NCBI GenBank assembly: GCA_948567375.1
Contig: OX419760.1
Span: forward strand, 58,168,657-58,232,656
From: Lunularia cruciata
Lineage: Eukaryota > Streptophyta > Marchantiopsida > Lunulariales > Lunulariaceae
Direction of reading: 5' to 3'
Length of the DNA stretch: 64,000 nucleotides
Shown: positions 50 to 43,690 of the stretch, one piece after another
Layout of the letters: the number at the start of each line of letters is the position of its first letter
How positions within the stretch are numbered: position 1 is the stretch's first letter
Program-made: the position numbers and the translations under genes
Notes under the pieces: model-generated
Database searches by the model: none
What the model was told of the DNA's origin: nothing
The model's input: only the letters and a program-made list of their open reading frames with translations

Positions 50-1853
50 TTACAAGGAATCCAGACCTGTTGGAGGAGACTTCGGTGGGGATTTGCGACC
101 CCTCTCGGACTTGGCATTTTCGGCAAATTTCATACTAGCCTGATGAAGACCATCAGCACGCTCCTTCTCGTTCCATTCACTGACATAGTAATCCTCCTCT
201 GTAGCCTTGGATGGGGGGCACAACATACCTCCCCACTGTGGAAAGTACACAAATGCAACTGGAAGGGTGCACGCCACGATCATGATTCCCATGAGCATGA
301 TACCGTTCTCCGTTGAGTACTTGGAGCTCATGAAAAAAATACCTTGCGTTACCACAGCTCCAACGTTTCCTCCTGCACCAGTGGCACCAGAAATGATCCC
401 CAAAGACCTTCGAGAAATGAAAGGAATGATACCGAAGGTAGCACCGCATGCCGCTTGGACGAAGAAAGAAAAGATCAACATGACGGCAATGGCTGGTCCC
501 AATTCACCCGTGAGACCAAGAATAATGCACAGAGCACCACCGAGAGTTTGGATGATCCAAAGATTCCAAAGACGACCCCTCATTCCCCATCTGGCGGCAA
601 CAACATCAGAAAAGACTCCTCCAAGAGGCCGAGAGAACAGATTCATGAGCCCGAAAGCCGAAGCGATGATTCCTGCAGTTTGCAGTTTCAGGTCAAAGCG
701 ATCGTAGAAGTACTCAGCAATTATATTGTCGACTGTGAGCTCCACCCCAAAGCAGTAGCCGTATGTTAAAGCAAAAATGTAGGTGCGATAATTGGTAACA
801 GCGTACAAGAAAACCTGCCAATGGGTATCAAGAAACATGGTCAGTTCATGATGAAACTCATCGCACTGGTCGGATACTAGCAAACAAAGACACTGAAATT
901 GGAGCTTCTTTACATCACAAAGACCGACTAGTGTGTACAGTAGACTAGATGGATCAGTTCCTCTATACATGAGGCAAATAGACATTGCACAATGTTACCT
1001 TCTTGAAGCTGTCGTTGACCTTTTGCCCTTCTCTTTTCAAGTCAGAGAAGTTTCCGTCTGGCAAATCTTGGCCGAGGGTCAGAACGAGCAGTCCCATCAT
1101 AACCTGGAGCACGCCAGGAACGAAGAAAGCAATTCGCCAAGCAGTGAACTTCTCCGCGCCGATGTCTCTACGGATGATATCGAAAACCAAAGGCATCACG
1201 AGCTGAACGATACCACCACCCATGTTTCCCCATCCAGCTGCTGTGCCATTGGCGAGTCCAACAATTTTGCTGTTGAACATAGAGCTCATCCAGAATTGAC
1301 AAGATACGAATGTAGCTAAACAGAAACCGATGAAGAATCGCACCAGAATGAATCCCAGAGGAGACGAGACCAGCGGCATACAGAAAATTGCCGGTGAGGT
1401 AATCATCATGAGGATCGCGCATCCGTAGCGAGGACCGACGAGGTCGCAGATGGTACCCATAAGCAGACGAGAGACGACTGCACCAGCAACTGAAGCGATA
1501 CCAGCATTACCGATATCTCCTTTCGTTAATCCCAAATTGTCACGAATGACAGGCATGAGAGGTGGTGCAGCAAATGTTGAGAAGAAGCAAATCATGAATG
1601 CAATCCAGGACAGGTGAAATGTCCGCATGTGAGGGGCAGCGACTGAGTAGAGTCTGATAGTCTTCGCTTTGTGCTCGGAATCCACGGGGAGGGCAAATTT
1701 CCTTCCCTTGAGGTCTGTTGCCTCGCTTTCACCTTTCTCACCAACGCTCTCCATTGTCATTTGGAAGACGGGCTCCCGACCTGTGACTCCATGCAAGGAC
1801 GAGCCAGGCTCTCCCTTAGCATTCTCGTCCTGCCAATTAGTGTTCGGAGCCAT
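50..1853 (-). CDS. NRT2: NRT2-type high-affinity nitrate transporter, copy A (intact, two exons)
   Basis: Exon 1 is 1853-999 and exon 2 is 814-50 (stop included), joined in phase 0 over a 184-base GT-AG intron (998-815). The product is 539 residues, the usual size for plant NRT2. The start at 1853 is chosen because the paralogues begin at the same place (MAPNTNWQD here, MAPHSDWQD and MATNTNWQD in the others); an in-frame ATG lies 12 codons upstream. Seen: a hydrophilic N-tail of about 75 residues, the MFS loop motif [10 protein letters not shown] after helix 2, the two nitrate-signature motifs ([10 protein letters not shown] and [11 protein letters not shown]), an arginine in helix 2 (VVSRLLMG) and one in SRPLGG that in this family contact nitrate, and a basic C-tail ending in LDSL. 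Family role: proton-coupled nitrate uptake at the plasma membrane, usually with NAR2. The neighbouring NAR2 gene is divergent. No lesion seen. Confidence 0.95.
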
Positions 1854-2926
1854 AGTGAGAGCAGAATGAAAGTGTTTCGAGCTCGACAATGCCGCGTTCA
1901 GGTATTGAGATCCGAACTGAGTACCAGAGAACGACTTCTCGATCGTCGAGTATCAAGGTTTGAGAGTGTCGGGGAAGAAAAAATGTACTCCAAGCATGCT
2001 ACTCGACAATCATCTACTCTCCTTGAACAGATGTTGGAGATAGCAGATTGAGGTTGAAATTGTAGAGTCGAGAGAGAGTTTATGTAGAGTGGGGACTGTG
2101 GAGGAAGTACCGTTGACTCTCCGTTCCAAGTGCTAAAAGTGCTGCTGTTGAGAATAGGTGGCTGGAATCTGAAGATGCAGCAGCGGACCTGAATCCCCTC
2201 CTTTGAAACCTGGGGCCACCATGGACTGGGAATCATAGCGCCGCATCTTGGTCTATTTTCGGGGGTTCAACTCTTCATGGGTGGGACCGCAGGGGTGCTC
2301 TCCGCCGCATCTAAGATCCAAACTTGGTAATTCCAACTGTTTTGGCGAGGGTAACAATGTGTCGGACTGCGCGAGTCGGCCGCATCACGTGAGCTGCGGC
2401 GACTGGTATGCTATTTCGCAACCCCTAAGTGTTCTGACAGTTCATGTGCTCGATTGGGTGATTCAGGATCTCCCAGCCACCGAGTCGGCAGAAACTCCAG
2501 TGATTTAGTCCCGCTCACGGAGACCATCCATTGTCCACAAGGCGGAATTAAAGTGCTAAATTTGTACTTTTGGACTGTTTTTGGGTGATTCGTACTCCGT
2601 ACTCCAGCTCCTGAACTGTGCGTGCGGTCTGTGAAAGCCGACTGGAAATTCTAATGTGAGCCTTCACTGGCCTGATGTCAAAATGATATAAGAAAGGTTA
2701 GACCTAGCTCTCTTTCCCACCATCTAGATCCAGATTCTCCAGCCCTGCGCTGATACTCTCTAAGTCTCTTGCGTCCTCGCTTGCAGTTTCTGAAAGCTAG
2801 GCCAGTCGAAGGAGTTGAACACCGGCATATTCCCTTCTGATTCAGTTTTGAAAATCTTCCTCGCATACTTATTTCGTTTCCGTACCGTCTCGATCGCCGC
2901 AAAGATCTAGAAAGGTGCAGATCAAA
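1854..2926. promoter_or_regulatory. Shared divergent upstream region between NRT2-A and NAR2
   Basis: About 1.07 kb separates the start codons of NRT2-A (minus) and NAR2 (plus), so it must hold both promoters and both 5' leaders. Seen: a TATA-like TATAAG at 2687-2692 about 240 bases before the NAR2 ATG, a weaker TATA-like site for NRT2-A on the minus strand near 2078-2087, and a palindromic G-box TCACGTGA at 2385-2392. The stretch around 2372-2455, including GAGCTGCGGCG, reappears upstream of NRT2-B near 29503-29570. Open frames here are short and do not resemble known proteins. That the region coordinates the two genes is inference from geometry. Confidence 0.6.
2385..2392. promoter_or_regulatory. 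G-box palindrome in the divergent promoter
   Basis: TCACGTGA, an eight-base palindrome with a CACGTG core, lies about 530 bases from the NRT2-A start and 540 from the NAR2 start. G-boxes bind bZIP and bHLH factors in plants. The paralogous block upstream of NRT2-B has lost the core. Function is inferred only. Confidence 0.35.
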
Positions 2927-3562
2927 ATGGCTTCGGTGCAATCGTTCTTCGCGTCTGCCGTAGCAGTGTTCGTCCTGACGGGTTTGGTCAGTGGTGAAGT
3001 CATGTTTTCCAGCTTGCAGCGAACTCTTACAGTTGATGTTGAAATCCAAAACCAGGTGCCGTCAACTGGCCTTGCGAAAGTGGGTGATGATTACTTGGTC
3101 GTCAAATGGAGTCTGAATGCGACTCAGGCCGGGCCTCCTGGATTGGATGCAACATACTCGAAGGTGCAGCTGAAGCTTTGTTATGCACCAGTTAGTCAAT
3201 CTGAACGAGGCTGGAGGAAGACCAAGGATGATCTCCACAAGGACAAGACTTGCGTCAAAACCATTGCTACCCAGAAGTACACTTCGGAGGGAAACAGCAC
3301 TGTCTGGAGAATTGCGAAAGACGTACCTGGCGCTCTGTACTTCGTCCGCGCCTACGCATTGAATGCTGGAGGGCTTCAGGTCGCATATGGACAAACCACT
3401 GACAAGACGAAGACCACCAACTTGATCATGATTGAACCAATTTCTGGAAGGAGCACGGCTATCGACATATCTGCTGCTGTGTTTTCTACCTTCTCCATCG
3501 GTTCGTTGCTCTTTTTCCTGGCCTTTGAGAAGATGAGGAGTAAACGGTCATCTAAGAAGTAG
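2927..3562 (+). CDS. NAR2: NAR2/NRT3-type nitrate transporter partner protein (intact)
   Basis: Single uninterrupted frame of 211 residues, close to the length of Arabidopsis NRT3.1. The ATG at 2927 has a good plant start context (AAAATGG); the in-frame codon four triplets earlier is GTG and is not used. Seen: a signal peptide (about residues 1-24, hydrophobic, ending near SGEV), an extracellular domain with two cysteines in KLCYAP and DKTCVK and the family segments RGWRKT and VWRIAKDVPG, one membrane span near the C-end (about residues 177-200) and a short basic cytosolic tail ending RSSKK. Family role: binds NRT2, is needed for its delivery and activity at the plasma membrane, and does not transport by itself. 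It stands head to head with NRT2-A and is the only intact NAR2 in the window. No intron is seen in the coding part. Confidence 0.94.
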   Translation: MASVQSFFASAVAVFVLTGLVSGEVMFSSLQRTLTVDVEIQNQVPSTGLAKVGDDYLVVKWSLNATQAGPPGLDATYSKVQLKLCYAPVSQSERGWRKTKDDLHKDKTCVKTIATQKYTSEGNSTVWRIAKDVPGALYFVRAYALNAGGLQVAYGQTTDKTKTTNLIMIEPISGRSTAIDISAAVFSTFSIGSLLFFLAFEKMRSKRSSKK

Positions 3563-4530: not shown

Positions 4531-7344
4531 AGAACAAGTTGGCCGGCCATTCAAAACACATCAGTCTTAAATTGCACATAAGACCAGCTGGTACAATTAC
4601 CTACCAAAACGCGATTACAACCATTCTACAAGCTTTGATAATTCATTGGAACGCGCAGCAAAAGTAAAACAGTAGACCGACATTAACGTTGTCTACAAAA
4701 TAGCACTGCCAATTCAATTGCGACTGGATTCGCCAATAGAACATGTAGTGTCGAGCATTCCTGAAACCGTCGAAACGTGTTTAGTAACTTCTTGAAATAC
4801 GTCTGAGTTTACTCGTACACATGACCTTCACCAAAATATATATAGTTTTTCAATTTCTTTTCATGTAAACACGACTGTGTTGGATATAGTTTGGTTCCGG
4901 TGGAAATTTTGAATATGATAGAAAGTTGAAGACCAACATTTATTACATAACTGAGGGGAAGATTTTTGTTCATGTGTATGAAAGGAGAGGACTGCGGCAT
5001 GAGTGAAACAGAAGCCGAAACGAACGGGAAATAAAATTGTATATGGAATGTCTGCTTATTATTGTTCAAATATGCTCACATTCATCGCTATAATAACCCT
5101 GACGCTGTCTACCCTCATATTGCTTTCCTCTTCTCCAACTTGCAGAAGAAGTTTCTCGGCTGAATAATAGGTCCAGAACCAGGCATCCTTCACAAGGCCA
5201 GAGAAGGATGACTTTCCTGCCACCGAGTGGAGTTTAGTTGCAGATTGGATTCATCATACTGGAAGATTCAGACTTTCAGCTGAGAACAGTCGTCAGCTTG
5301 TACCTTCAGATTGTGTAACGTGCTTTGAGTTCAATAGTGACGTCAATTCCTCAGCTTAGATGAGACTCAGCAAAGAATGGTAGGACCTGATTTGTTCCAC
5401 TAGACCTGCTGTATCAAAAAAATTTGGGCCAAACTCATAAAGCTCACAACCTACAGAACGGGTTGCAATTCTAACAGGTTCACGATTCTGGTTGTAAAAT
5501 TTTAGCTGTCTTTGTCAAAGAAAAAGAAAATTCATATGTGCAAGAAGTACGTAAGTGTGAAATACGTCTCTCATGCGGTTCGTTCAAGGTGAAACCAAAC
5601 GATTGTGAATCATTTATTGAATATTCTGTCCTAAAGTCAAGGATGCACACAGATTCTTTACAGGCAACTACTGTTGTCAATCAACAGTAGGGACATCTTT
5701 AGTGGGACAAAGAATAGTGGACGGAAGTTCATTGTTGCCCTGGTGAAGAAATCTCAATAACAATACAAATCAGGAGAATGTTTGTAACATCCATGGACGT
5801 GTACAGTGATGGGAAAGAAGAAGACAAACTACTGCGATATGGAGGACAACAAAATTTAAGATCCGGACTTCTTTTGACATAAAGTAACAAAAGTGCATCA
5901 ACATCATCATTAGGTCTACATTCTACATAAATTTGTACAATTTGTAAAGTGCTTGCTCTCTTTTGCCAGCATTCCAGAAACTGACATGAATATGTTATCA
6001 TCGTCTAGTTCTCATGAAAATAATCCAAGGTTCTCAATTGCCTAATCGTCATGCAATCATTGGTTCTTAGAGAACATCAAGCCAATGGTCGAAAGGCTAC
6101 GGCGACCATCATTCTACAGACACAGACTTAATAGTACCCCAATGCTTGACATGGGCTTAGTTAGTCCGCTTGGCGTTAAAATTGTCTATGTTGGCACTGA
6201 AATTCCCGACTAGCTAGATGTTGTCCCATAACTCTCACTCTAATACATCAGGATGGATTCGGTGAAACTTATCGTAGTTTTGAAAATCGACCAACTCCTT
6301 GAGTTTCGGGACAAACCAAATGCCCAACTCCTTTTCCGATATGTCGGGCTAGTGTTAAGCCTATCTCTCCAACACCACTCTATTTTATCTCGAGAACATT
6401 CAAAACAAATTCCAAGAATGGAAACCGCAAGATATAATGTGAGCGTGTGCTGCTGACGATGTCAATGATAGTTGATGTCGTACTTGATTCCAGAACTGGA
6501 CACAGATCCCTAAAATACCACTTCCGGGATGAATTTACAGATCGATTCTCAGGTTTTGATCCCTAGCCTAGAAGTAGTGCTAAGAAGGCGATATAGTTCC
6601 AACGTGACTGTTTCCCCAGGAGTACGAGTCAGTCTGTTGTCATTTTCCCTGGACTCGACAGAAGAATGAGTATCTGAGTGGGAACATTGGTTACTGTATT
6701 CAGCACTGAAGCATGCAGTATAAGAACATGAAGGTACAAGTCCCAATGTCAACAACGTAAGAGGAATTAGAAACGGGGAATTTATCTAGTTTGGGACCAT
6801 GTAATCGCTCGAACTCCCTACAATAAAGGAGTAGGTCAGATGCTCTGAGTAGTTTAAACTCCAAGTGAAGTTCTGCCGATCTCCCACTGGAACTTCCTTT
6901 CGCTCAAAAACCAAAGTACATCTTGAATGCTTGTTTTATTTTTCAGAGAAACTATTGATTAAAATTTCAATTTTTATAATAGGATCTATAATTTTGATAT
7001 ATCTTACTATCATCATCTTACATTTACATTTCATACGTTGAGAACTCAGAAACCCTTCTTATATCTTATGGACTCATCCATGACCTCATTAAAATCGTAG
7101 TGTTGACGTCACAGAGACACCAAACTAGCCACTAACGGATAAGAATGAGTGACTTCACTTCAATATACCTCCATTTGGACATGATGTGACAACCTTCAGC
7201 CAAGTGCAAATGATCAGACTTGTGCTATGGGATCCGAAAGAAATGCAAATTGACTTAGGCAGCTATATAGGACTCAGTCCAATTCAAGTAGAAATCAATT
7301 TAATTCCTTCTATGTATGGTATGTACATAAACTCTGCCGGGGGG
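4531..7344. other. Intergenic, no gene recognised
   Basis: AT-rich DNA with only short open frames of ordinary chance composition. A segment around 6118-6225 shares scattered identity with 30060-30200 (GACTTAATAGTA and GGCACTGAAATTC are present in both), which points to another old dispersed repeat. No RNA gene seen. Confidence 0.4.
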
Positions 7345-8032: not shown

Positions 8033-8587
8033 TCAGCTCCTGCTCTCCGCTGCGGCGCATTTGCAGCCAAGGATTGATCGGTAAGACTGCTGAATGTCTA
8101 AACAGCAAGAGGGATGCGGTATCTGGACAATACAGAGCTTGAGCTTGGATGTCAGGAGGGAATCATGCCTACTCTTAAAGTCTTTCTGGAGTATCTCACA
8201 GTAGAATAACCAGAGGAACAAACAGTAATGGTGACACACAGTACGCGTACGGAGTACGGGTTGTCCAAAAACAGGGTCAACTTCAATGCTGCGCCCGGGA
8301 TTGGGGGAAAACGCTGAATTTGCCCAAAACCCCCGGAATTCGCGGATGAGCTTTTGAGCCATGCCAGAGCATGTTGCTGTGAAGCCATCCAGTGAATAGA
8401 CCAGGATGCGGCGCTTTGATTCTTCGTTGAGTTGAAGGACGGGAAGGCCCTCCTGCATCGTCAGATCCTTTGGGAGCGGGTCTCTGAAGGTCATATCAAA
8501 TACAGGTGCGATCAACGTCGATGTTACCCAGATTTCATGCACATTCCAACGTATGAAGATTGTCCTGAAGTGGACATTCATCCTCAA
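8033..8587 (-). CDS. Unrecognised open frame, possibly a captured exon
   Basis: An open frame of 184 codons. The part encoded near 8540-8340 looks protein-like (IAPVFDMTF, LPKDLTMQEGLPVLQLNEE, TATCSGMAQKL), with balanced composition and no low complexity; the 3' third looks like chance sequence. I do not recognise the family. It starts next to the NAR2 pseudogene, on the same strand and upstream of it. It could be one exon of an unrelated gene, a gene relic or a chance frame. Confidence 0.25.
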   Translation of the reverse strand: MRMNVHFRTIFIRWNVHEIWVTSTLIAPVFDMTFRDPLPKDLTMQEGLPVLQLNEESKRRILVYSLDGFTATCSGMAQKLIREFRGFWANSAFSPNPGRSIEVDPVFGQPVLRTRTVCHHYCLFLWLFYCEILQKDFKSRHDSLLTSKLKLCIVQIPHPSCCLDIQQSYRSILGCKCAAAESRS

Positions 8588-8899
8588 GCTGCTCCGTTCA
8601 GCGAACGGCCTGCATTTCTTCCTCTCTCGGTTGGTAAGTCAAGGAGAGGAACTGGTTGTTAAAAAGACTATCTCCGAGGTATCGATCGATATCCAACGAA
8701 TGCACTCATCAAATTAAACATGAGATATCTTAAATGTTCTACTCTTTAGTCTCCATCTTTAATTATTGGCGTCTAATGTATCCATCGACATCGACTTATT
8801 CTGCAACTCAAGGACATGCTAAACTAACCAAGAGTCCTCTCAGCACAATCAAACATTTTAGGCGTACTATACCAATAACTATTACTTTACAAGCCATAA
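8588..8899. other. Intergenic, nothing recognised
   Basis: AT-rich sequence leading into the copia fragment. Open frames here are short and unconvincing. Confidence 0.3.
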
Positions 8900-10060
8900 T
8901 AGTTCTCATTAATACAAATCTTCCTTTAAATTGATTTTATAATGTGAAACTAATCCTTATTTGCATACATGTGATAAGAGCAACCTGAATAAAATATCCA
9001 AGGCTGTCCAAATTGATTTTTATCCTGCGTGACACATATAACATCAACCATAGATCTAAATGATTCTACTGCACTTGCCTAACTTGAATATTGACCTTTA
9101 TATAACTATATAATAGGTTCAAGTGTCACACTCATACAATCTCTCTTGAAATTCTCTATCTATAGATCCAGAATTTGGCTTTGGTACTTCTAGGTCTAAA
9201 CTTTGAACTAGATTTACCCTTCGTCTTGATCTGACTTGGGTCTACTCTCGTATCTTTAATAAATATAACGTCAGGATTCCTATTTTCTTTGTTAGTTCTT
9301 TTATGCATCTCATTCAAAGGTAAAATTAAAGTGATCTACTCTAAATCTATATCATCTTTCCCGTACGAACTACTATGATAAGATGCTCAAGTGATGAAGA
9401 ATAATAATTATGAGTTATCCTTAACCTCTAAAATAATCTCTATGTTTATCAACTCACAAATGATTTTCTTGAATATGTTGAGGTTCTCATGATGCGCTAG
9501 CACATTTATATCTGCAATGTCTAGAGTTTTTGTTTTGAGTACAATCAAATTTCCAAGCATTCTTTTTATATAAACTCTTCAATTCTGACCATAAAATTTT
9601 TGGTAAATTTTTTTTATTATATTATGTAACACTTTATCACCAAGATTGAATCAAATCGTGCTAACGACCCTCATATCTGCATCTTCCAAATTTGTCTTCG
9701 CTCTTACAGTCCTCCAGTTTCGTACCTATCATCATATAATTTCGTACCAATGTTGTTCTTCCTCCCACTACAAACTTTACATTTTTAATTCATACTCTTT
9801 CACCATTGTAAATCATTAGCATTGATACCATTACCATTTCACCATTAGCTTTGATACCAATTGCTAGGAGAGCTATACTTCTCTCAATAGAATTTTTTGC
9901 CCCTAGACTCAAGACCTTCTCGGACCCAGCTGCCTAAACCACCTTGGCCTAGCTATCTACTATAAAATGAGTCTAAGATAAGATCTAAGAAGGTACTGCT
10001 TAAGCCACCTTAGCTTAGATATCTATTAGTGCATGAGTCTATGTTAGTTAATGTTCAATC
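8900..10060 (-). mobile_element. Copia retrotransposon fossil fragment (gag end plus 5' LTR side), broken
   Basis: Read on the minus strand, about 9850-9000 resembles the gag region of the copia element at 14521-19279 (both contain AAAATCATTTGTGAGTTGAT and a GGGAAAGATGATATA-like stretch). An iMet-type primer site (complement of AGCTTTGATACCAA) lies at about 9848-9862 and is followed by a probable LTR remnant to about 10060. No pol region is seen. It is a badly decayed, truncated fossil with many breaks, clearly older than the 14.5 kb copy. Its edges are uncertain. Confidence 0.6.
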
Positions 10061-12870: not shown

Positions 12871-13849
12871 TTGTGGTGTAAAATACTTATGTTATTTCAG
12901 TTTTTGGACCATCGGGTTGGGGACTTCATCATAATGAGACTTTTTATGATGGGAACATCATTGGGTTGGGGACTTCATCAAGTTGTGGACTTCACCAGGG
13001 GATGTCTCCATGTGATGACATGTATAGGAATTCTTTGAATTAAGGCTTTGTACATTAAATTAATTCATTTTGTGAATATCTGATTGTCTGGCCCATTCTT
13101 CCAATGTGTAGCTAGAGTCATAGTATTGCTAGAGTGTATAGTAAGCACCTCTTTGTAGGTGGCATTGCCATAACATTAATATGTAACAACCAAATAGGTG
13201 GATTAATCTTAATTTGTTGTATGGGGTAGTGGCATTGCACAAACGTGGATGAGCCTCATCTTGTTGTAATGGAAAGTATAAGGAGAGTCACTTGGACTTA
13301 ATACAGGTTTAGTAAGCACAAATTGGAATTCCATCTCATACATGCTGTTCAAACTTGTGAAAGTGCAATCAATTTGCTTGTGTGTTGCAAAGTTCACTCT
13401 GTTGTGTGAACTAAGCTTGAGTACCTCTTAGATCCTGAGTGTATCAATGTAAGTATGGTGTATGTTTTGTGATTGCTAAGTTGGGTAGTGGTGATAAACT
13501 CAAAGTAGGAATGCAAGTGCTGAGGTGCAGGTGTGCAGTCAGGCTTGTGAGTTCTGAAGAGTTGGGGCAACACATTGAGAGCCATCACCACGGCTGTGAG
13601 TGTCATAAAGTCTCCTACATAACAAAAAGCTCAATGTTTTGCAAACTTGTAATATAACAGTGAGGAGTGCCTTTTGGGAAGGGTAGACTGCTTTCATTGG
13701 CGTGGTGGTATGCATTATATAGGTTAGTTGAGGGAAAACCCTTTGGGGCCGTTGACCAACCCAACAGACTGAATCATCACTTTCAAGAGTTCAAGCACTA
13801 TGAGGTATCATTTGTGAATGTGACTGAGTTGTTTATTTTTTCTTGTAGT
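12871..13849. other. Unclassified DNA upstream of the NRT2 fragment
   Basis: Contains a short local repeat around 12912-12990 (ATCGGGTTGGGGACTTCATCA and ATTGGGTTGGGGACTTCATCA). No gene recognised. It abuts the truncated end of the NRT2 fragment, so the element boundary is probably near 13850. Confidence 0.3.
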
Positions 13850-14340
13850 GTGGAGCATCCAAATTGTTGGTGGAATAATTTGCATCGTTCTTGGTATCAC
13901 TCGAGAGCTACAACCTGCAATTGCTGTTAAGTTCATCTTCTCTTTCTTTGTCCAAGCTGTAATCGGGGCAACATGTGGTATCATTCCTTTTTTCCCGTAG
14001 GTCTTTGGGTATCATCTCTAGCACAACTGGAGCAAGAGGAAATATTGGAGCTGTCGTGAGGCAACTTATTTTCCTAATGAGCTTCAAGTACTCAACAGAA
14101 AATGGTATCATGCTCATGGGAATCATGATAGTCCGTGTCACTCTATCAATTATGATTTTCCACTTCACACAATGGTGCATTATGTTCTGCCCTTCTTCAC
14201 AGTCTACTTTAGAAGATTATTATCAAAGTGAATGGAACGAGAAAGAGCAAGCGGATGGTCTTCATGGGACTAGTATGAAATTTGCCAACAATGCTAGTTC
14301 CAAGAGAGGTTGTCAGGTCACCCCCTGCTGGTAGGACCAT
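13850..14340 (+). pseudogene. NRT2: NRT2 3' fragment (exon 2 second half only)
   Basis: Translation matches the last third of NRT2: ICIVLGITRELQPAIAV, then the post-helix loop [16 protein letters not shown] (nitrate signature 2, degenerate), [17 protein letters not shown] and the C-tail [18 protein letters not shown]. There is at least one frameshift between the part before and the part after 13975. All of exon 1 and the first half of exon 2 are absent; sequence identity starts abruptly near 13850, next to unclassified DNA. It points away from the NAR2 pseudogene at 7.6-8.0 kb, the arrangement of the other NRT2/NAR2 pairs. Confidence 0.9.
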
Positions 14341-14520
14341 GGAGCTGGTGAAAACGCTTTGTAGATGATGAGGATACTGAAGCATTAGAAAGACCGCAAA
14401 GTAGGATCCAGGATCTTGGAGAGTTTAAAAGTAATGAGTCAAATATTGTGAATAAAAAATATCTGCCTGCTACCAATTCCATGTCAAGGTGGAGACAACT
14501 GTTACAATGGATGGAGGATG

Positions 14521-14662
14521 TGTTATGTTTGGCTTGTTTATCAGTGATGACTGGTCAAGGACAAAAGTAAACTTAACTGATGGTAATTGCTTGTCACTTG
14601 TCTAGAAGTTCAAGTGGATGATGGCAATGGACCTGTTTATAGAAATATATAGAAATATATAG

Positions 14663-14725
<63 letters not shown>

Positions 14726-14879
14726 CAATGAGAAATAAAGTTCTCAAAGGCTGGTGAGAGCCTGTTTCAGCAGTGGAGGTAGCTTCCGAGACAAGAAGTG
14801 AACCATGTTATCTCCTATTGTTTAATGTGGTTTGTGATGTGCTATTGTGAGAGATCCTAGGGATTGTGCTTTTCTAACA
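14521..14879 (+). repeat. 5' LTR of the copia fossil
   Basis: Starts TGTTATGTTT and ends TTCTAACA, immediately followed by the primer site. It contains a long TA dinucleotide run (about 14660-14722) that makes it longer than the 3' LTR. Confidence 0.9.
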
Positions 14880-14881
14880 AT

Positions 14882-14893
14882 TGGTACCAGGGC
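14882..14893 (+). other. Primer binding site (iMet tRNA type)
   Basis: TGGTACCAGGGC, close to the usual plant TGGTATCAGAGC, lies two bases inside the 5' LTR. Typical for copia and many gypsy elements. Confidence 0.8.
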
Positions 14894-18984: not shown

Positions 18985-19279
18985 TGTTATGTGTGGCTTG
19001 TTATCAACGATGATTGGTCAAAGACAAAAGCAAATGTAACTGATGGTAGTTGCTTGTCACTTATTCAAGTGTACAGTCACTTGTCAATGATGGACCTCTA
19101 TATATATATATATATATATATATGAGAATTAAAGTTCTCGAAGGTTGGTGAGAGCCCGTTTTAGTAGCTTCCCGGGGTAGGAAGTGAACCACGTTATTTC
19201 TTGTTGTTCTCTGATTTTTGTTTAATGTGGTATGTGATGTGCTATTGTGAGAGGTCATAGGGTCAGAGTTTTTCTAACT
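18985..19279 (+). repeat. 3' LTR of the copia fossil
   Basis: Starts TGTTATGTGTGG after a purine-rich tract and matches the 5' LTR along its length, with a shorter TA run (about 19099-19122). Confidence 0.9.
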
Positions 19280-21684: not shown

Positions 21685-21965
21685 ATATCTCCAGATAAGA
21701 ACTGGCAGGATGGAAATTCAAAGAGTGAGCCTGGGTCATCCTTGCATGGAGTTACGAGTAAAGAGTCAAGCTCCCTCGCACAAATGGCTACTCTCCGCGA
21801 AAACAAAGGTGAAGTCGAAGCAATCGACCTCAAAGGAAGGAAATTCAGCATTTCTGTCGATTCTGAAAAAAAAACGAAGATCGTCAGACTGCACACTCTC
21901 GCTGCTCCCCACATGCGGCCATTTCACTTATTATGGATTTCCTTTATGATTTGCTTCTTCTCACA
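21685..21965 (+). pseudogene. NRT2: NRT2 exon 1 fragment, tandem duplicate without start codon
   Basis: Codes for the NRT2 N-tail through the first helix ([40 protein letters not shown]) and stops matching after about 21965. The start codon aligned with the paralogues has become ATA (21685). The same part of the gene begins again 120 bases later, in the pseudogene at 22085, so exon 1 was partly duplicated in tandem. The upstream promoter-like sequence belongs to this first piece, so the downstream copy lost direct contact with it. Confidence 0.88.
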
Positions 21966-22084
21966 TTTCACTTGTTTCCTCTGTATTTGATTTTGAGTTT
22001 CGAGAAAATCACTGAACCAGACGCGTATATCCTCCATATCTGTCCCAAGTGAACTTGTCCTACACGAGTGCTCGACTCGAGAAA

Positions 22085-27230: not shown

Positions 27231-29179
27231 TTAAACCGTGCCGTTTGGAGGGCTCTTCGATGGGGAATTACGACCCCTCTCGGACTTGGCATTTTCGGCA
27301 AATTTCATACTGGCCTCATGAAGACCATCTGCTTGCTCTTTCTCGTTCCATTCGCTTCGATAATAATCTTCCTCTGTAGACTTTGAGGGAGGGCAGAACA
27401 TACTGCCCCACTGTGGGAAGTGGACAAGCATAATCGGTAGAGTGACACAAATTATCATGATTCCCATGAGCTTTATACCGTCTTCTGTTGAGTACTTTGA
27501 GCTCATGAAGAAAATACCTTGAGTCACCACAGCTCCGACGTTACCTCCCGCTCCAGTGGCCCCTGAAATGATTCCCAACGACCTCCTTGAAATGAAGGGG
27601 ATGATACCAAAAGTGGCCCCGCATGCTGCTTGGACAAAGAAAGAAAATATCAACATCACTGCAATTGCAGGTCCAAGTTCACCAGTGATACCAAGAACGA
27701 CGCACAGAATACCACCAGCTGTTTGAATGATCCAAAGATTCCAGAGACGACCCCTCATTCCCCATCTGACAGCCACAACATCAGACATGATTCCTCCCAG
27801 AGGACGAGAGAAAATGTTCATGAGACCGAAGGTGGAAGCGATAATTCCAGCAGTTTGAAGTTTCAAGTCGAAGCGGTCATAGAAGTACTCTGCAATGATG
27901 TTGTCGACTGTGAGCTCGACGCCGAAGCAGTAGCCATACGTCAAAGCGAATATGTAGGTGCGATAGTTGGTGACAGCATATAGAAACACCTGCCAGAGGA
28001 TGAAATTAATAGGACTTTCAGTCAAACCTCAAAGACATGATATAGTTAGAAAAGGCGGGAAGCAATACTTGCTCGAATTCCATAGCTAAAAAATGCTTAA
28101 CCGTGGGAGCTATAAACGTATTTCAACGACCATGTGCATGCAAACCCAGATGGATTGATCGTTAGAACAGGAGAACGCCAGCCGCATGTGGTGCAAGGGT
28201 GCAATACAATGCGAAGAACAGACAATGCATCAGTCTTATGGAAGCTTAGCAATACCTTCTTAATATTCTTAGTGCAATGAGAAAAATAGACAGCACCAGT
28301 CTTAAGTAAACTAAGCATTACCTTCTGAAAGCTGTCATTGACTTTCTGTCCTTCTCGCTTCAGTTCAGAGTAATTTCCGTCAGGTAAATCTTGACCGATG
28401 ATCAAAACTAGGAGTCCCATGAAGACCTGAAGCACTCCGGGGACAAAAAAGGCTATTCTCCAGGCTGTGAACTTCTCCGATCCAATATCCCTGCGAATGA
28501 TATCGAAAACCAAAGGCATCACAAGTTGCACAATTCCTCCACCCATGTTTCCCCATCCCGCTGCTGTGCCATTGGCAAGTCCAACAATCTTGCTGTTGAA
28601 CATGGAGCTCATCCAGAACTGGCAAGAGACGAATGTTGCCAAGCAGAAACCAATGAAGAATCGCACCAGGATAAATCCTAGCGGTGTCGAAACGAGAGGC
28701 ATGCAGAAGATGGCCGGGGCTGTAACCATCATCAGTATTGCGCATCCATAGCGAGGACCCACGAGATCGCAAATCGTACCCATGAGCAGACGAGAGACGA
28801 CTGCACCAGCTACTGACGAGATACCAGCATTACCAATATCTCCTTTCTTTAAACTGAGATTATCACGAATGACAGGCATGAGCGGCGGCGCAGCAAATGT
28901 CGAGAAAAAGCAAATCATGAAAGAAACCCACGACAAATGAAATGTTCGCATGTGAGGAGCAGCCACAGAGTAGAGTCTGACAGTCTTTGCTTTGTGCTCC
29001 GAATCCACTGGAAGGGAAAATTTCCTCCCTTTCAGATCAGTTGCTTCAATCTCTCCCTTGTCCTCACCAAGGGTACCCATTGGCGGCAGAAAAGTGGGTT
29101 CGTGACCTGTTACTCCATGCAGGGATGACCCAGGCTCGCCCTTCCGGTTGCCATCTTGCCAATTGGTGTTCGTAGCCAT
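27231..29179 (-). CDS. NRT2: NRT2-type high-affinity nitrate transporter, copy B (intact, two exons)
   Basis: Exon 1 is 29179-28322 and exon 2 is 27989-27231 with the stop, in phase 0. The intron (28321-27990) is 332 bases, GT-AG. The product is 538 residues. The ATG at 29179 gives [11 protein letters not shown], matching the paralogues. Seen: the MFS loop motif [20 protein letters not shown] and [11 protein letters not shown] signatures, and arginines in VVSRLLMG and SRPLGG. The C-end differs: it stops after PPNGTV, while copies A and C end in LDSL or VDSL. Just inside the intron the donor region is duplicated 66 bases downstream (second GT at 28255), in the same frame. Role as for the family: proton-coupled nitrate import with NAR2. 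It is divergent to NRT2-C and shares an upstream block with NRT2-A. No lesion seen. Confidence 0.95.
28251..28330 (-). repeat. Duplicated splice donor region in NRT2-B
   Basis: On the minus strand, AGAAGGTAATGCTTAG at the exon 1 end (GT at 28321) is echoed by AGAAGGTATTGCTAAG 66 bases downstream (GT at 28255), and the following bases also match (CTTAAGACTGGTG against CATAAGACTGATG). Both donors are in the same frame and the 66 bases have no stop. Use of the second donor would add 22 residues to the central cytosolic loop after helix 6. Confidence 0.75.
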
Positions 29180-30525
29180 CGCTCAAAAATCTGCAATAGC
29201 TAGGAGTTCAAAGTCTCTCCTTCGGGGATAAGGTTGAATGACGCAAGTGCCTGGCAACTTCTCTCAGAATACTGAAAACTATGAATTATGAAGGTAAATT
29301 GCTTTACCTCGTATACATCCCTCGAAACAGCCAGTTACTCCTCTTAGCTCACATTCATTCAGGAAATGAACATCGAAGCTAGAAGAGTAACACTTGCTGA
29401 AGAGGACTGGAGGTAGTATCGAAGTATTGAATCGGAGTTCCATTTAAACTGACGAGGCCATCGTCAGTTGCGAGCTACTCCGTGAAGAAAGACTCTCATA
29501 AGAGCCGCCTCATCCGAGCTGCGGCGTCCTGGGTCCCCTCCTAAGACATCAGTTCGCTCTTACAGTTCATATGTAAGAATAGTACTCCGAGATTCGAGCC
29601 TCGCGCCTCGAGCACTCCCGTTCACCCGGGTTCGCCTTTAAAATACATCAATCTTCCCCCATCAATCGAAAATCAGTCTTGCAGCATAGAGATAATTGAA
29701 ACTTTCCCATCCCTGTCTTGCCCCGACTTGAGGCAAGTTGATCTTCTGTACAGGCACGTGGTTATAGCCCGTCAGTTTAGATTCTCCTCTTAGTAGCTCG
29801 ATCTCGAACAAGAATGAGTGCTGAAACCGACGATCGAAAACCTGAGCGAGCGACCATTACTGTACGGCAATGGGTTGACACAAGTTCACAACACTACTGA
29901 TTAGACACGTATGTATCGGATCTGACTCGAATAGCATAATTGCGTAGTTAAGGGATTGGATTGTTTTGGTCGCTGTGCGTTTTTCGTCAGTATCGTCAAG
30001 TAAGTTAGGGTAGCACCGCATTATCTGTTGCCGCATGTGCTAAGTTCCCATGGAGTTTGAGGCACAGATGGACTTAAGAGTGCCCCGACTTTCACATTCC
30101 GACTTAAAGTCATCCCAAGTTGGTAGAAAGACTTAATAGTAACCCAGACTTGATGCGGGCATAGTCTGCACTGGCACTGAAATTCACGGACCGTTCGAGT
30201 TTTGCTCTTGTAAATGTTCATCGAAACGTAGAGTTAACTCAATGTAGAACATCATAATTCTACTCCTCTATCTGTCTCCTTCTCCTATACGAGGAAATTC
30301 TCGCAAATCATTATTCATAGAATTGTCGTTCAAAAGCGGAGAATTCTAGATAGAGTTCATCTGGGAAGTTAACTATGAAGTAATAATGATTTTTTCTATT
30401 ATGTTTCTTCAATTATTATCGAAAAATAGAGAACTTTGAAGACTTCATCCCCGAACTTCCGGGGAGCTCATCTTGAAGCAGATGGCAGCCCCAAACACTC
30501 AACCCTCGTCTTTTATCACTGATTT
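29180..30525. promoter_or_regulatory. NRT2-B upstream region
   Basis: Holds the NRT2-B promoter on the minus strand. The stretch at about 29503-29570 (GAGCTGCGGCG and a downstream CTTACAGTTCAT) resembles 2372-2455 upstream of NRT2-A in the same orientation relative to the gene. A further dispersed repeat similar to 6118-6225 lies at about 30060-30200. No NAR2 sequence is seen here. Confidence 0.45.
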
Positions 30526-30617: not shown

Positions 30618-30639
30618 TCAAAGGAAGTCAGTACATTAT

Positions 30640-34200: not shown

Positions 34201-35099
34201 TGATTAGTGTTTAGGGTTTAGAATTATGTCATGAGCTCGACAATTTTGTGAGGTTCTTTTTTGTAGATTCAATATTATCTAACCTTCTTATATTGCAAAT
34301 GGTTTATACGGTAATATGGTACTGACGATGATCAGAATCTCGACCTATTCTTAACCACAGATTCAACGCAACAAAAAGGTGGACTCCCTCTGTAGCCTCT
34401 AGTGCTGCATCAAGGTCTTCCGAAGGTTTTCTCAGAATTCTCGATGAGAGATCATACCTGAATCGGAAACTTTGCTCTCTAATTGAGAATTCTGAAAATA
34501 CTGTCGCGATGGAATCATTATCTCTCGAATCGGGAGCAGACGCCGTCAGCGCCACAGGGAAAAGCAGCTGCCCAGGCCATGATGGACTTTTGATGGGATG
34601 TCTTTCGAATTCGAGAAAGGCCGAATGAGAAATTTCAACAGGAGCGATTATATCTGCTTACTCTCTCTGCATCGGAAGCTTGCGGGAAAGCTTCGGATGC
34701 AAGATTTGAGTTGTCTGCAGAAAACGGCGCTGCTGCTTGAGTGTAGAAACAAAGCCCCAGTGGTTCTTATTCTTGCTGAACACTTTTATGGAACCCCACG
34801 GGTTCCATAAACAAGGCTGCAATAGTCTAACAAGGACGACAGTACGCAGTACGACTTCTGGAAACAGGACAATTGCAAATTTAGCTTTAGAGTTATGCGA
34901 GAAGTATGGTCCTTGTATAAGCGAGACCGCCAGAGGAGGAGTTTTTGAGGCACAGAATCAGACAAATTTAGCAGTTCCACAATAATAGCTTTTACGAGGT
35001 ACTGAGAGGGTTTTCGAGACGCCGCTGCTTGATCGCTTGATGCGGCATAATATGTATTGTCTTTGCTTGTCAATGTTGAGAGATACATCAACTACAACC
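31241..35099. other. Intergenic between NRT2-B and NRT2-C, no gene recognised
   Basis: No recognised protein or RNA. An 18-base perfect inverted repeat (GCCGCATCTTGGACCATT at 31419-31436 and its complement at 32203-32220) encloses about 770 bases. An open frame at 31344-31670 (108 codons) lies at one arm and shows no recognisable domain. No NAR2 remnant is seen upstream of NRT2-C. Confidence 0.4.
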
Positions 35100-35387
35100 A
35101 CGATGTTATAGTATATAAACCGTACAAGACCTATTTCATTTCCAAGCTGCTGTCTCGAGGAGTCGTCTCCTCTTCTAAATTCAAAGTTCGTCCTCTGAAC
35201 CTGAGTCCAGAAGAGCTGACTGGCTGCAGAGACAAACACATGGAATGAAGGATTCGTCTTCTCAGCCCTGAGAATTCAGCGTTTGCTACAGACAGGCAGA
35301 CACTTCTTCATTGTATGAGATTGGCTTGGACAAGTGAGCATTCACCTGGAAAGCTTCCAAACTCAATCGGAATCGACTTCTTGAGCT
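35100..35387 (+). promoter_or_regulatory. NRT2-C core promoter and leader
   Basis: TATATAAA at 35112-35119 is 276 bases before the ATG. A block at about 35176-35238 (GAGTCCAGAAGAGCTGACTG followed by GAGACAAACA) has counterparts at 41645-41711 and 21501-21535 upstream of two broken NRT2 copies. The block lies downstream of the TATA box, so it is probably in the transcribed leader. Confidence 0.6.
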
Positions 35388-37300
35388 ATGGCTCCGCATT
35401 CGGACTGGCAGGATGGTAATTCGAAGGGCGAGCCTGGTTCATCCTTGCATGGAGTTACAGGTCGAGAGCCTAGTTTCCTGGCGCCAATGGGTACACTTGG
35501 CGAAGACAAAGGCGAAGTCGAAGCAACTGATCTCAGAGGGAGGAAATTCTCTCTCCCCGTCGATTCAGAACACAAAGCAAAGACCGTCAGACTCTACTCT
35601 TTTGCTGCTCCTCACATGCGGACATTTCATTTGTCGTGGGTGTCTTTTATGATCTGCTTTTTCTCCACATTTGCTGCGCCACCCCTCATGCCTGTCATTC
35701 GTGACAATCTCGGTTTAACGAAAGGGGATATCGGTAACGCTGGTATCGCTTCAGTCGCTGGTGCAGTCGTATCTCGTCTACTCATGGGTACGATTTGCGA
35801 TCTTGTCGGTCCTCGCTATGGATGTGCAATTCTGATGATGGTTACATCACCGGCCATTTTTTGCATGCCCCTCGTTTCGTCACCCCTAGGATTTATCCTG
35901 GTGCGATTCTTCATCGGTTTCTGCTTGGCAACATTCGTCTCCTGCCAGTTCTGGATGAGCTCGATGTTCAACAGCAAGATTGTTGGTCTGGCTAATGGCA
36001 CAGCAGCTGGATGGGGAAACATGGGTGGGGGCATTGTGCAACTTGTCATGCCTTTGGTTTTCGATGTCATTCGTAGGGATATTGGGTCGGAGAAATTTAC
36101 AGCTTGGCGAATTGCATTTTTCGTGCCCGGAGTGCTTCAGGTCATGATGGGGCTCCTGGTTTTGATCTTCGGCCAAGATTTACCTGACGGAAATTACTCT
36201 GAACTGAAGAGAGAAGGACAGAAGGTCAGCGACAGTTTCCAGAAGGTAAGCATTTGCGATTCTGCTATCCTCATGTCTAGAGGAACTAATGCTTCTGAGC
36301 ATTATCTTACGCCTCTCCAGTTCTTCCCATATCACAACACGCACCACAAGCAGCTAGCACTCCTCCGTCTAACGCATCAGTCTATCTAGAGTAGCTGTTG
36401 GTCCGGTACGGTGAAAATGTGTATGCTAATACGTTTCTAGCACCTAATCAACACCTTACTTCTTTCTGGTTGTGAGGGGATAACTCGTGCCTTTGAGGTT
36501 AACTAGTAGAGTTATCATTCTCTTCCTTTTGGCAGGTGTTTTTGTACGCTGTCACCAATTACCGCATCTACATCTTCGCTTTGACGTATGGCTACTGCTT
36601 CGGTGTGGAGCTCACGGTCGACAACATCATTGCTGAGTACTTCTATGATCGCTTCGACCTGAACCTTCAAACCGCTGGAATTATCGCTTCCGCATTCGGG
36701 CTCATGAATCTCTTCTCTCGTCCTCTAGGAGGAATCATATCTGATGTTGTTGCTGTCAGATGGGGAATGAGGGGTCGTCTTTGGAATCTTTGGATCATCC
36801 AAACTCTTGGTGGCATACTATGCATCGTTCTTGGTATCACTGGGGAACTAGGACCTGCAATTGCTGTTATGTTGATCTTTTCTTTCTTCGTCCAAGCCGC
36901 ATGCGGTGCTACCTTCGGTGTCATTCCTTTCATTTCCCGCAGGTCTTTGGGAATCATTTCTGGTGCTACTGGAGCAGGAGGAAACATTGGAGCTGTGGTG
37001 ACTCAAGGTATTTTCTTCATGAGCTCCAAGTACTCAACAGAAGACGGTATCATGCTCATGGGAGTCATGATAATTTGCACCACCTTACCAATCATGCTTG
37101 TGCACTTTCCACAGTGGGGCAGTATGTTCTGCCCTCCTTCAAAGTCTACTGAAGAAGATTATTATCGTAGCGAATGGAACGAGAAAGAGCAAGAAGATGG
37201 ACTTCATGAGGCCAGTATGAGATTTGCTGAAAATGCCAAGTCCGAGAGGGGTCGTCAGTCACCTCCAAGGACCACTGGAACAGGAGTAGATTCTCTGTAA
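35388..37300 (+). CDS. NRT2: NRT2-type high-affinity nitrate transporter, copy C (intact, two exons)
   Basis: Exon 1 is 35388-36245 and exon 2 is 36536-37300 with the stop; the 290-base GT-AG intron is in phase 0 and ends in a pyrimidine-rich tract and GGCAG. The product is 540 residues. Residue map: hydrophilic N-tail 1-78, helix 2 arginine R130, MFS motif [10 protein letters not shown] 134-143, nitrate signature 1 206-215 ([10 protein letters not shown]), exon joint after residue 286, R348 in SRPLGG, nitrate signature 2 429-439 ([11 protein letters not shown]), C-tail from about 480 ending in TGVDSL. All expected residues are present. Family role: plasma membrane nitrate/proton symport at low nitrate, with NAR2. 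It is divergent from NRT2-B; the leader is shared with two broken paralogues. Confidence 0.96.
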
Positions 37301-40585: not shown

Positions 40586-41210
40586 TCAAATGCTCTCCAG
40601 GGCTAGAATGAAAAGCAATGACCCAATGGAGAAAGCAGAGAATATGGCAGCACAAATATCTATAGTTGCATACCTTCCTGAAATGGGTTCAATCGAGATC
40701 AAATTGATATTCTTCGCTTCGTTGGTAGTCTGTCCAAAGGCCACCGTGGTATCTTCTGGATTCAGAACGTATGCGCGTACGTGGTACACAGCTCCCGGCA
40801 CATCTTTGGTGATCCTCCACTCAGTGCTATTTCCCACAGAGTTGTACTTCTGCGAAAGGATGTCCTTTACGCAGGTCTTATCCTTCTGAAAGTCATTGTT
40901 GGTTTTCCTCCATCCACGTTCAGTCTGGCTAATAGGCGCATAACAAAGTTTAGATTTACCTCCGAGTATAATGCATTAAACCCAGGAGCTGCTCCCTCCG
41001 TGGCATTCAGACTCCACCTGATTGCGAGGAGTCCATCACCACTTTGACAAGGCCAGTGGGAGGAACTTGATTTTGATTTTCAGCTTCAACAAGAGTTCTC
41101 GGCAGGGAAGGCAAAAACCTGTCTATTGACGAGGCTTGACAAAGCGAACACTGTAAACACAGCAGCGAAAATTATAGACGCCAATGTGGACCGTGTGGAA
41201 CTTAAGCTTC
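40586..41210 (-). pseudogene. NAR2: Broken NAR2/NRT3 copy 2
   Basis: Nearly the whole gene is recognisable on the minus strand: a decayed signal peptide region (41195-41120), QVPPTGLVKV (41070-41040), LLAIRWSLNATEGAAPG (41030-40980), KLCYAPISQTERGWRKT (40950-40905), KDKTCVKD, NSTEWRITKDVPGA, and the membrane span IDICAAIFSAFSIGSLL (40640-40590). Frame changes occur near 41041 and near 40950 (one base lost at each) and in the signal peptide region around 41110; the start codon aligned with the intact gene is missing. From about 40948 down to the stop the frame is open. It is head to head with the broken NRT2 at 41900, about 690 bases apart. Confidence 0.9.
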
Positions 41211-41899
41211 GATACTGTCATAACTTGGAATTGCCGGGTTTTATAGCTTCTCGACATGTAAAAGAACTTTCACACAACGGGAAACCAACGATCTCCACAG
41301 TGCAAACTATTGAGTACGTCTTGTACCGAATCATGGGAGAAGTGCAAACGTAGCACTCTGCAACAAAGTTCCCTCGACTTATGGAGAAATGGCTGTTATA
41401 CCTGCCAGAAGGACCGTAGGAATGGGAGCTTCAAGGCGACGAAGGAGCCAAATTTGGAACCTGAACAATAAAAGCGTTGGAGGGTTTGACAGAGATAAAC
41501 AGGACGCCACAGTTCTGTCACTCGATATGGCTGATAGGTACAGTTTGTTGCAACGTTGCGAAATGCAGCGAGCCTGTGAGTAGCATATAGAGAAGAGCAA
41601 CTCATACTCATTTCCATCGGCTCTATTCAGCATTTGTCTCCTCTTCAGCACTCAAAGTTCAAATCCCGAACTTGAGTCAAGAAGAGGTGACTGGCTGTTG
41701 AGACAAACAGCTCACCTGAAGAATTTCCTTTCATTAACTCAAGTTTGACAGTTGAGATTGAGCAGCAGATTGAACGACAATTATACGATCGTTCCAATAC
41801 CAAATCCGCAGATGTAGAGCTAAATTTCTGCAATCCACCTGAGTACGTTTTAGCTCCAGCTCAACTTAAAGTGGCTTTCTGAGCACGGTTCAATTCACC
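41211..41899. promoter_or_regulatory. Upstream region of the decayed NAR2/NRT2 pair
   Basis: Lies between two divergent pseudogenes. The stretch at about 41645-41711 (GAGTCAAGAAGAGGTGACTG followed by GAGACAAACAG) matches the leader block of NRT2-C at 35176-35238. A weak TATA-like CATATAGA occurs near 41585. No coding sequence is recognised. Confidence 0.5.
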
Positions 41900-43690
41900 A
41901 TGGCTCCAAATACTAATTGGCAGGACGGGAATGCTAAGGGAGATCCTGGCACTTCCTTGCATGGAGTTACAGGTCGAAAGCCTGTTTCCTGGCAGCTATG
42001 GAAACGCTGGGCGAGGGCAAAGGTGAGGTCGAAGCAACAGGTATGAAAGGAAAGGTCGCCCTTCCTGTGGACTCTGAACACAAGGCGAAGCCTGTCAGAC
42101 TCCACTCTGTTGCTGCTCCCCACATGCGGACATTTCATTTGTCCTGGATCTCTTCGCGATTTACTTCTTCTGCACGTTTGCCGCGCCTCCCCTCATGCCT
42201 ATCATCCGTGACAATCTCGGTCTGAAAAAGGGTGACATCAGTAACGCCGGTATTGCCTCAGTTGCTGGTGCAGTTGTATCTCGTCTTCTCAAGGGTACAA
42301 TTTGCGTTCTCGTGGGCCCTCGCTACGGATGTGGAATTCTCATGATGACAACAGCCCCTGCTATTTTGTGCATGCCTCTTGTTTCCACACCGCTTGGATT
42401 TATTCTGGTGCGATTCTTCATTGGTTTCTGTTTGGCGACGTTCGTGTCCTGCCAGTTCTGGATGAGCTCCATGTTCAATAGTAAAATTGTTGGTCTGGCT
42501 AATGGCACAGCCGCTGGATGGGGAAACATGGGTGGTGGAATCGTCCAGTTTATTATGCCTTTGATTTTCGACATCATCCGTAGGGACATTGGCTCTGAGA
42601 AGTTCACAGCCTGGCAAATTGCTTTCTCTGTTCCTGGCGTGCTCCAGTTCATGATGGGACTGCTCGTTCTGACCCTCGGCCAAGATTTACCAGGCGGAAA
42701 TTTCTCTGCACTAAAAAGAGAGGGACAGAAGGTCAACGACAGCTTCCAGAAGGTAACCGTTTGCAAATGTGTCATCCACGTGCCTAGCGGAATTAATTCT
42801 TCTGCATAAAATGTAGCAATCTCCAGTTTAAATTTCCTGCATACAAGATGCTTTGGCCTTCAACTTTACTACTTGGAAGATCCCTGATGGTCAAAATGAG
42901 TTTGAATTAACGAGTTTTGTTTCCACATATACTCTGGCAGGTGTTTTTGTACGCTGTCACCAATTACCGCACCTACATTTTCGCCTTGACATACGGCTAC
43001 TGCTTCAGCGTGGGGCTCACAGTCGACAACATTATTGCTGAGTACTTCTATGATCGATACGACTTCAACCTTCAGGCGGCTGGAATCATCGCTTCCACAT
43101 TCGGGCTCATGAATCTGGTCTCTCGTCCATTCGGAGGGGTCATTTCTGATCTAGTCGCTGTCAGATGGGGAATGAGGGGACGTCTCTGGAATCTTTGGAT
43201 CATTCAAACTCTTGGTGGTGCTCTCTGGATCGTTCTTGGTCTCACCCGGCAGCTTGAACCCGCAATTGCAGTCATGTTGATCTTCTCTTTCTTTGTTCAA
43301 GCCGCATGCGGAGCTACCTTCGGTTTCATCCCATTCATCTCCCGAAGATCTTTGGAAATCATTTCGGGTGCCACATGAGCGGGAGGAAACGTGGGAGCTG
43401 TAGTGACGCATGGCATCTTCTTCATGAGTTCCAAGTACACAACCGAGGATGGAATCATGATCATTGCTTGCACTCTACCGATTGTGTTCGTCTACTTGCC
43501 ACAGTGGGGTGGCATGCTCTGCCCCCCATCAAAAACAACCGAGGAAGAATACTACGTCAGTGAATAGAGCGAGAAGGAGCAGGCAAATGAACTCCATCAC
43601 GCGAGCGTGCGATTTGCCGAAAACGCCAAGTCCGAGAGGGGTCGCCAATCGCCCACAAGAACCACCGGATCAGGAGTAGATTCTCTGTAG
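41900..43690 (+). pseudogene. NRT2: Broken NRT2 copy, recently decayed
   Basis: Exon 1 (41900-42752) and exon 2 (42941-43690) have intact splice sites (AAG|GTAACC, CTGGCAG|GTG) and a 188-base intron. The start [11 protein letters not shown] is intact. One base is lost near 41990 and another near 42155, putting the first helix out of frame; from 42195 exon 1 is in frame through [18 protein letters not shown]. The MFS loop motif has become [10 protein letters not shown] (D changed to V). Exon 2 has a TGA at 43376 inside signature 2, a TAG at 43565 in the C-tail, and a five-codon deletion in DGIM(LMGVM). The normal TAG follows GVDSL. Otherwise close to the intact copies, which suggests recent loss. 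Paired with broken NAR2 copy 2. Confidence 0.95.

Follow-up and report, generated by a model that had tools for sequence, protein, structure and literature searches.

Head-to-head NRT2 and NAR2 genes in Lunularia cruciata: a locus probably shaped by copying of a divergent unit together with its spacer

Plant NRT2 proteins, transporters of high-affinity nitrate uptake, commonly require a partner protein, NAR2 (family NAR2/NRT3). In Lunularia cruciata, genes for both crowd together on contig OX419760.1 of assembly GCA_948567375.1, in a 64-kilobase (kb) stretch (forward-strand positions 58,168,657 to 58,232,656) that we call the window and number from its first letter. It holds six NRT2 loci as located by tblastn, three intact (A, C, and D) and three broken (B, E, and F), and three or four NAR2 loci, a single one of which (NAR2-0) is intact. 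From left to right, with strands in parentheses, the order is NRT2-A (-), NAR2-0 (+), a possible remnant at 5.1 kb (+), NAR2-1 (-), NRT2-F (+), NRT2-B (+), NRT2-C (-), NRT2-D (+), NAR2-2 (-), and NRT2-E (+), and within it NRT2-A/NAR2-0 and NAR2-2/NRT2-E form the tight head-to-head pairs:

50-1853, minus strand: NRT2-A, intact, 539 amino acids; exons 1853-999 and 814-50, GT-AG intron
2927-3562, plus strand: NAR2-0 (NAR2/NRT3), intact, single exon, 211 amino acids
5127-5271, plus strand: weak match to the N-terminal part of NAR2, perhaps left from a fourth copy (nhmmer, 13.2 bits)
8009-7654, minus strand: NAR2-1, broken
13849-14367, plus strand: NRT2-F, exon 2 only, three frameshifts
21685-23948, plus strand: NRT2-B, broken; partial 5′ duplicate 21685-21969, main copy 22085-23948
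27231-29179, minus strand: NRT2-C, intact, 538 amino acids; exons 29179-28322 and 27989-27231
35388-37300, plus strand: NRT2-D, intact, 540 amino acids; exons 35388-36245 and 36536-37300
about 41184-40577, minus strand: NAR2-2, broken by six frameshifting insertions or deletions (indels) and two stops; 5′ end set by alignment
41900-43689, plus strand: NRT2-E, broken by two frameshifting deletions and two stops; exons 41900-42752 and 42941-43689

These coding matches can hardly be put down to chance: the best tblastn E-values are about 2e-18 for NAR2-1 and about 2e-58 for NAR2-2, and every NRT2 locus reaches 1e-53 or lower. What is left intact is one NAR2 against three NRT2 genes (A, C, and D), with A/NAR2-0 as the sole intact unit, and half of the NRT2 loci (B, C, and D) have no adjoining NAR2. 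NRT2-C and NRT2-D are each 89% identical to NRT2-A, and the pairwise ratio of nonsynonymous to synonymous divergence (dN/dS) among the three intact genes is 0.06-0.08. In a pattern check, all three alike carry MN[LI]FSRPLGG and a second nitrate signature and keep two membrane arginines, motifs and residues that we take to be those of NRT2.

The proteins of the A/NAR2-0 pair appear to carry the features expected of a functional pair. NRT2-A, the one transporter scanned against the nitrate transporter model TIGR00886 (C and D were not), scores 315.9 bits over a curated cut-off of 311.7, and its exon 1 matches MFS_1. NAR2-0 matches Pfam PF16974 with 168.1 bits (E 1.1e-49; gathering cut-off 26.6), and hydropathy predicts hydrophobic segments at residues 1-31, a signal-like N terminus, and 177-203, a C-terminal membrane helix. 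The only arginine/aspartate pair of NAR2-0 spaced nine residues apart, R97 and D106, resembles R100 and D109 of OsNAR2.1, an equivalence drawn from spacing, without alignment to OsNAR2.1. Those two OsNAR2.1 residues are needed for NRT2 binding, and changing them abolishes binding and uptake (PMC4232926). Sequence searches of solved structures matched neither NAR2-0 nor exon 1 of NRT2-A; 10 pattern matches to NAR2 in viral contigs included no relative, and none of 299 pattern matches to NRT2 in prokaryote contigs was confirmed.

In the second pair, NAR2-2 carries six frameshifts in about 0.6 kb versus two in about 1.6 kb of NRT2-E, with two stops in each. The heavier damage in NAR2-2 fits a NAR2 product that would be shared in trans, leaving extra copies dispensable. 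A third set, NAR2-1 and NRT2-F, is likewise head to head but not adjacent, with about 5.9 kb between its members. NAR2-1 shows 10 frameshifting indels and one stop in a global alignment of 442 base pairs (bp), the 5′ part of which is uncertain; within the gap, 8724-9488 resembles the interior of a Copia element and matches 16163-15349, and tblastn finds no NRT2 exon 1 between NAR2-1 and F. A frame of 201 amino acids at 8036-8638 has no Pfam match and overlaps the fossil spacer described below; it was rejected as protein-coding and taken as a chance frame. An earlier note, made from the letters alone, had described the first pair (50-3562) as intact and divergent, the second as broken in both members, and the third set as broken with element DNA in between, and each description holds: the first has complete reading frames on opposite strands with 1,073 bp between start codons, the second has frameshifts and stops in both genes lying head to head, and the third is interrupted by the Copia-like stretch. 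Its count of three adjacent, divergent pairs stands for the two tight ones and fails for the third, given the distance. NRT2-B, NRT2-C, NRT2-D, and the weak remnant at 5127-5271 are additions to what that note described.

Copying of a unit in its entirety should leave the DNA from start codon to start codon related as well; at a synonymous divergence of about 1, unconstrained DNA would be expected to be barely alignable. The regions upstream of the genes were therefore compared by scoring colinear chains of short ungapped matches, against two nulls: 200 dinucleotide-preserving shuffles (seven regions, 21 pairs), and real tiles of the same length from the window, on both strands (six regions, 30 directed pairs). 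The upstream features that matter are:

1854-2926, unstranded: A/NAR2-0 spacer, 1,073 bp from start codon to start codon; candidate shared control region
8152-8659, minus strand: fossil spacer ahead of NAR2-1 and colinear with the A/NAR2-0 spacer at 2006-2840
29291-29502, minus strand: NRT2-C upstream block, related to the part of the E spacer next to NRT2
34452-35387, unstranded: NRT2-D upstream region, putatively what is left of a full NAR2-NRT2 spacer, with no NAR2 beside it
41185-41899, unstranded: NAR2-2/NRT2-E spacer, about 0.7 kb (stretch tested, 41225-41899)

Four of the 21 pairs reach 1/200 shuffles or better. The A spacer and the NAR2-1 upstream region share a chain of 59 (0/200 shuffles; tiles 0/200 with a null maximum of 25, and in the other direction 0/192 with a null maximum of 47), made of nine colinear blocks that run from 2006 to 2840, nearly from start codon to start codon. 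The strongest of these is identical at 26 of 28 positions (8422-8395), and the main blocks are visible by plain blastn; a 27-base core, a pattern derived from its own two sites, occurs at those two sites in the window with at most three mismatches versus none in 100 shuffles. The E spacer and the D upstream region share a chain of 58 (0/200 shuffles; tiles 0/192 and 0/206), in which 41725-41336 is colinear with 35254-34867 over 390 bp. Weaker is the match of the A spacer to the D upstream region (chain 28; 1/200 shuffles; tiles 1/192 in both directions), the alignment of which reaches 2851, 75 bp short of the NAR2-0 start codon. Finally, the NAR2-1 and D upstream regions share a chain of 25 (0/200 shuffles; tiles 3/192 and 0/200). 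The 3′ flanks served as a control, except that of A, which falls beyond the edge of the window. Of 28 comparisons among them, 27 gave no notable match and one, NAR2-2 versus E at 1/202, is compatible with chance in so many tests; the spacers are thus the better conserved part.

Shorter elements recur within these spacers. The word GTACTNCGTAC, picked after the alignments were seen, has three sites in the 64 kb (2592-2602, 8247-8257, and 34842-34852), which fall at matching places in the A, NAR2-1, and D spacers. It holds two copies of GTAC, the core recognized by SBP/SPL factors, and these may be SBP/SPL sites. As a separate observation, GCCGCATC occurs eight times in the window, five of them within the A, NAR2-1, and D spacers (2240, 2304, and 2379 on the plus strand; 8405 and 35039 on the minus strand). 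Closer to the transporter genes, the NRT2-proximal block of the E spacer is common to D (0/100 shuffles) and C (1/100). Compared directly, D and C show no match in this block (15/100 shuffles); a three-member profile of C, D, and E aligns them, and NRT2-B scores 9.9 bits against that profile, under the best of 60 shuffles (11.2).

Remnants of further NAR2 copies were sought with three queries in 10 regions, and none of these 30 tests gave a convincing one next to B, C, or D. Three tests fell in the top 5%. Two of them, at 24.0-27.2 kb (3/138) and at 3.6-7.6 kb (0/120, with NAR2-1 as query), are disbelieved, their matches being scattered across kilobases. The third is the remnant at 5127-5271, which scores 13.2 bits versus 7.9 for the best of 60 shuffled windows and yields a chain of 20 (1/244 tiles) with NAR2-0 as query; the DNA upstream of it matches no spacer in the chain test over seven regions. 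It covers NAR2 profile positions 102-270 on the plus strand and NAR2-1 covers 277-627 on the minus strand. A single gene split by an inversion was considered as the main explanation of the two and rejected, because the DNA past the 5′ end of NAR2-1 aligns colinearly with the A/NAR2-0 spacer just as it would next to an un-inverted gene; the remnant is possibly a separate, weak fourth copy of NAR2. The NRT2-B main copy (22085-23948) has 10 frameshifts, with D as reference, and three stops. Beside it, the first roughly 280 bp of its exon 1 are tandemly doubled (21685-22358), the two parts being 82% alike, a partial duplication.

The spacer comparison provides independent evidence, which favors copying of a divergent unit that would have included the spacer. 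We consider it probable, though well short of certain, that the locus goes back to an array of divergent NAR2-NRT2 units, copied along with their spacer, that has since decayed and preferentially lost NAR2. In the ancestral unit, NAR2 and NRT2 would have been transcribed outward from the spacer between them, about 0.7-1.1 kb long, which would hold control elements for both genes. This unit would predate the duplications, and its copies, each taking the spacer along, would have left their traces at A/NAR2-0, NAR2-1, D, and NAR2-2/E; NAR2 copies would then have been lost preferentially because one membrane partner could serve several NRT2 transporters. For D, the economical reading is that it may once have had a NAR2, since lost, because its upstream DNA can be aligned to the A spacer up to 2851 and to 390 bp of the E spacer. 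A single region may control both NRT2 and NAR2; what the spacer itself displays is conserved sequence. In a bidirectional-promoter pair, divergent genes have start sites within about 1 kb; the distances here, 1,073 bp for A/NAR2-0 and about 0.7 kb for E/NAR2-2, are between start codons, not transcription starts. The earlier note had proposed that a divergent unit was duplicated whole, a view supported in part, by colinear spacers beside unconserved 3′ flanks, and less well by the third set, where F is not A-like and NAR2-1 and F may be no original pair. The arrangement itself is real and moderately surprising, and the ancestral unit is likely, if unproven.

Several observations weigh against this account. 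First, the spacers of the two undoubted pairs, A and E, do not match directly (9/200 shuffles; tiles 11/206 and 29/192), and the link between them would have to go via D. Second, the B and C upstream regions match no full spacer clearly; the best of their matches, C versus E (3/200 shuffles; tiles 10/192 and 5/206), is the nearest of the 17 remaining pairs. Third, neither profile nor chain searches detect a NAR2 beside D. Fourth, TGACYC-N10-AAG, a nitrate-responsive motif, is not enriched in the window, with 28 matches at up to one mismatch versus 33 expected, and no match lies in the A or E spacer. Finally, some results from the coding sequences also count against it. Synonymous divergence (dS), high and rough throughout, is 0.99 (0.80-1.27) between A and E and is exceeded by the 1.63 (1.13-2.8) between NAR2-0 and NAR2-2, the intervals overlapping only slightly. 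In the unrooted NRT2 tree, A and E stand apart from B, C, D, and F with support of 100 in the full alignment and 89 in the F stretch, and F thus groups with B, C, and D rather than with A. The NAR2-1 spacer, by contrast, resembles that of A. The root lies beside A with one bacterial outgroup (support 68-69) and beside D with four (support 51, or 94 for intact genes only), and is treated as unresolved. Since three NAR2 copies allow one possible unrooted tree and the NRT2 root is unsettled, the comparison of branching orders proposed in the earlier note has no power here.

What, then, is the third set? Because of its place in the B/C/D group, F does not belong naturally with a spacer that resembles A's, and either NAR2-1 and F derive from two separate units or coding sequences were converted. 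We see an even chance that the set is a composite brought together by accident, NAR2-1 coming from a lost A-like NRT2 that would have started at about 8.8 kb and F being a detached exon from a copy resembling D. Such a composite suits both the conflict between tree and spacer and the failure to find an exon 1 between the two; against it, gene conversion confined to coding sequence could turn F D-like while the spacer stayed A-like, and only about 510 bp of F are aligned.

Nineteen frames of at least 150 amino acids are present in the window, of which 14 are NRT2, NAR2, or antisense to these; of the other five, one is a Copia reverse transcriptase and four match no family above cut-off. Nitrate and nitrite reductases were looked for among these frames and among 20 proteins scanned, and none turned up; genes with many introns could escape this search, which covers a window beginning 49 bp beyond the NRT2-A stop. 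The window has no transfer RNA genes and no Rfam match at gathering score. Mobile elements include one degenerate Copia-type element with long terminal repeats (LTR), between F and B, its LTR-like repeats being 72-87% alike in ungapped blocks:

14521-19278, plus strand: degenerate Copia-type LTR element, with LTR-like repeats and RVT_2

The region 48081-61753 contains Gypsy-type retroelement pieces with protease and gag domains, two long repeats (48081-50058 and 59755-61753), and, at 50058-51118, a tandem copy of 1 kb.

A question of origin, compatible with duplication of the unit and its spacer, is whether the pair was inherited from an algal nitrate-assimilation cluster instead of arising as a novelty of the lineage, which we regard as somewhat unlikely. 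In its favor, published chlorophyte clusters have NRT2 beside NAR2, in the order NII1-NRT2.2-NRT2.1-NAR2-NIA1-NAR1 in C. reinhardtii and likewise in Ostreococcus and Micromonas (PMC4620153); the search of the 64 kb, which revealed neither nitrate nor nitrite reductase, speaks against it. So does a study of 132 species, which reports that the synteny networks of NRT2 and NRT3 do not interact and that no synteny of either was seen in green algae, bryophytes, or lycophytes (PMC8658032); its method is based on collinearity between genomes, by which adjacency inside one genome could be missed. Distinctly less likely still is that NRT2 and its upstream DNA were tandemly duplicated and NAR2 became their divergent neighbor repeatedly by local rearrangement, for which the missing direct match between the A and E spacers, the NRT2-proximal block that E shares with D (0/100) and C (1/100), and the three of six loci (B, C, and D) without adjoining NAR2, D in particular, can be cited, and against which stand the nearly full-length match of the A spacer to the NAR2-1 upstream region and the D match to the A spacer up to 2851, since independent captures would not yield shared far spacer ends.

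With duplication of a divergent unit as the favored account, a bolder version can be put forward tentatively, as rather less probable than not: in an early-diverging land-plant lineage, a true bidirectional-promoter NRT2/NAR2 unit would have been amplified whole, the spacer preserving stoichiometry whenever a new copy arose, with NAR2 later dropped and spacers persisting ahead of NRT2 genes, such as D, that have no NAR2. How the expression of partners can be matched would become visible in a lineage that kept the two genes head to head across a conserved spacer. The D spacer raises a further question: what becomes of a two-way control region after one of its genes is lost?

Set beside known systems, the locus shares features with both algae and plants. 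As in the chlorophyte cluster HANT-AC, to which NRT3 belongs (PMC6652019) and in which Chlamydomonas NRT2.1 adjoins NAR2, NRT2 and NAR2 are direct neighbors; unlike that cluster, the window shows no nitrate or nitrite reductase in its 64 kb, and the pair has been multiplied, with most copies broken. Both families match their plant counterparts by Pfam and NCBIfam, and the key interaction residues are the same by spacing; in contrast to the plants of the 132-species study, in which NRT2 and NRT3 fall into separate synteny networks (PMC8658032), the genes here are adjacent. Among the matches listed from a partial open-access literature, no title or opening abstract describes a head-to-head NRT2/NAR2 arrangement in a land plant, which does not amount to absence from print. 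There is also a likeness in gene numbers to the liverwort Marchantia polymorpha and its expanded NRT2 family: the genes that MpRRB upregulates there include 12 NRT2 and two NRT3.1 orthologues (PMC9729187), so that, as in this window, many NRT2 genes accompany few NRT3 genes. If NRT2/NAR2 pairs are kept in the lineage, they would bear on whether the algal nitrate clusters dissolved gradually in land plants.

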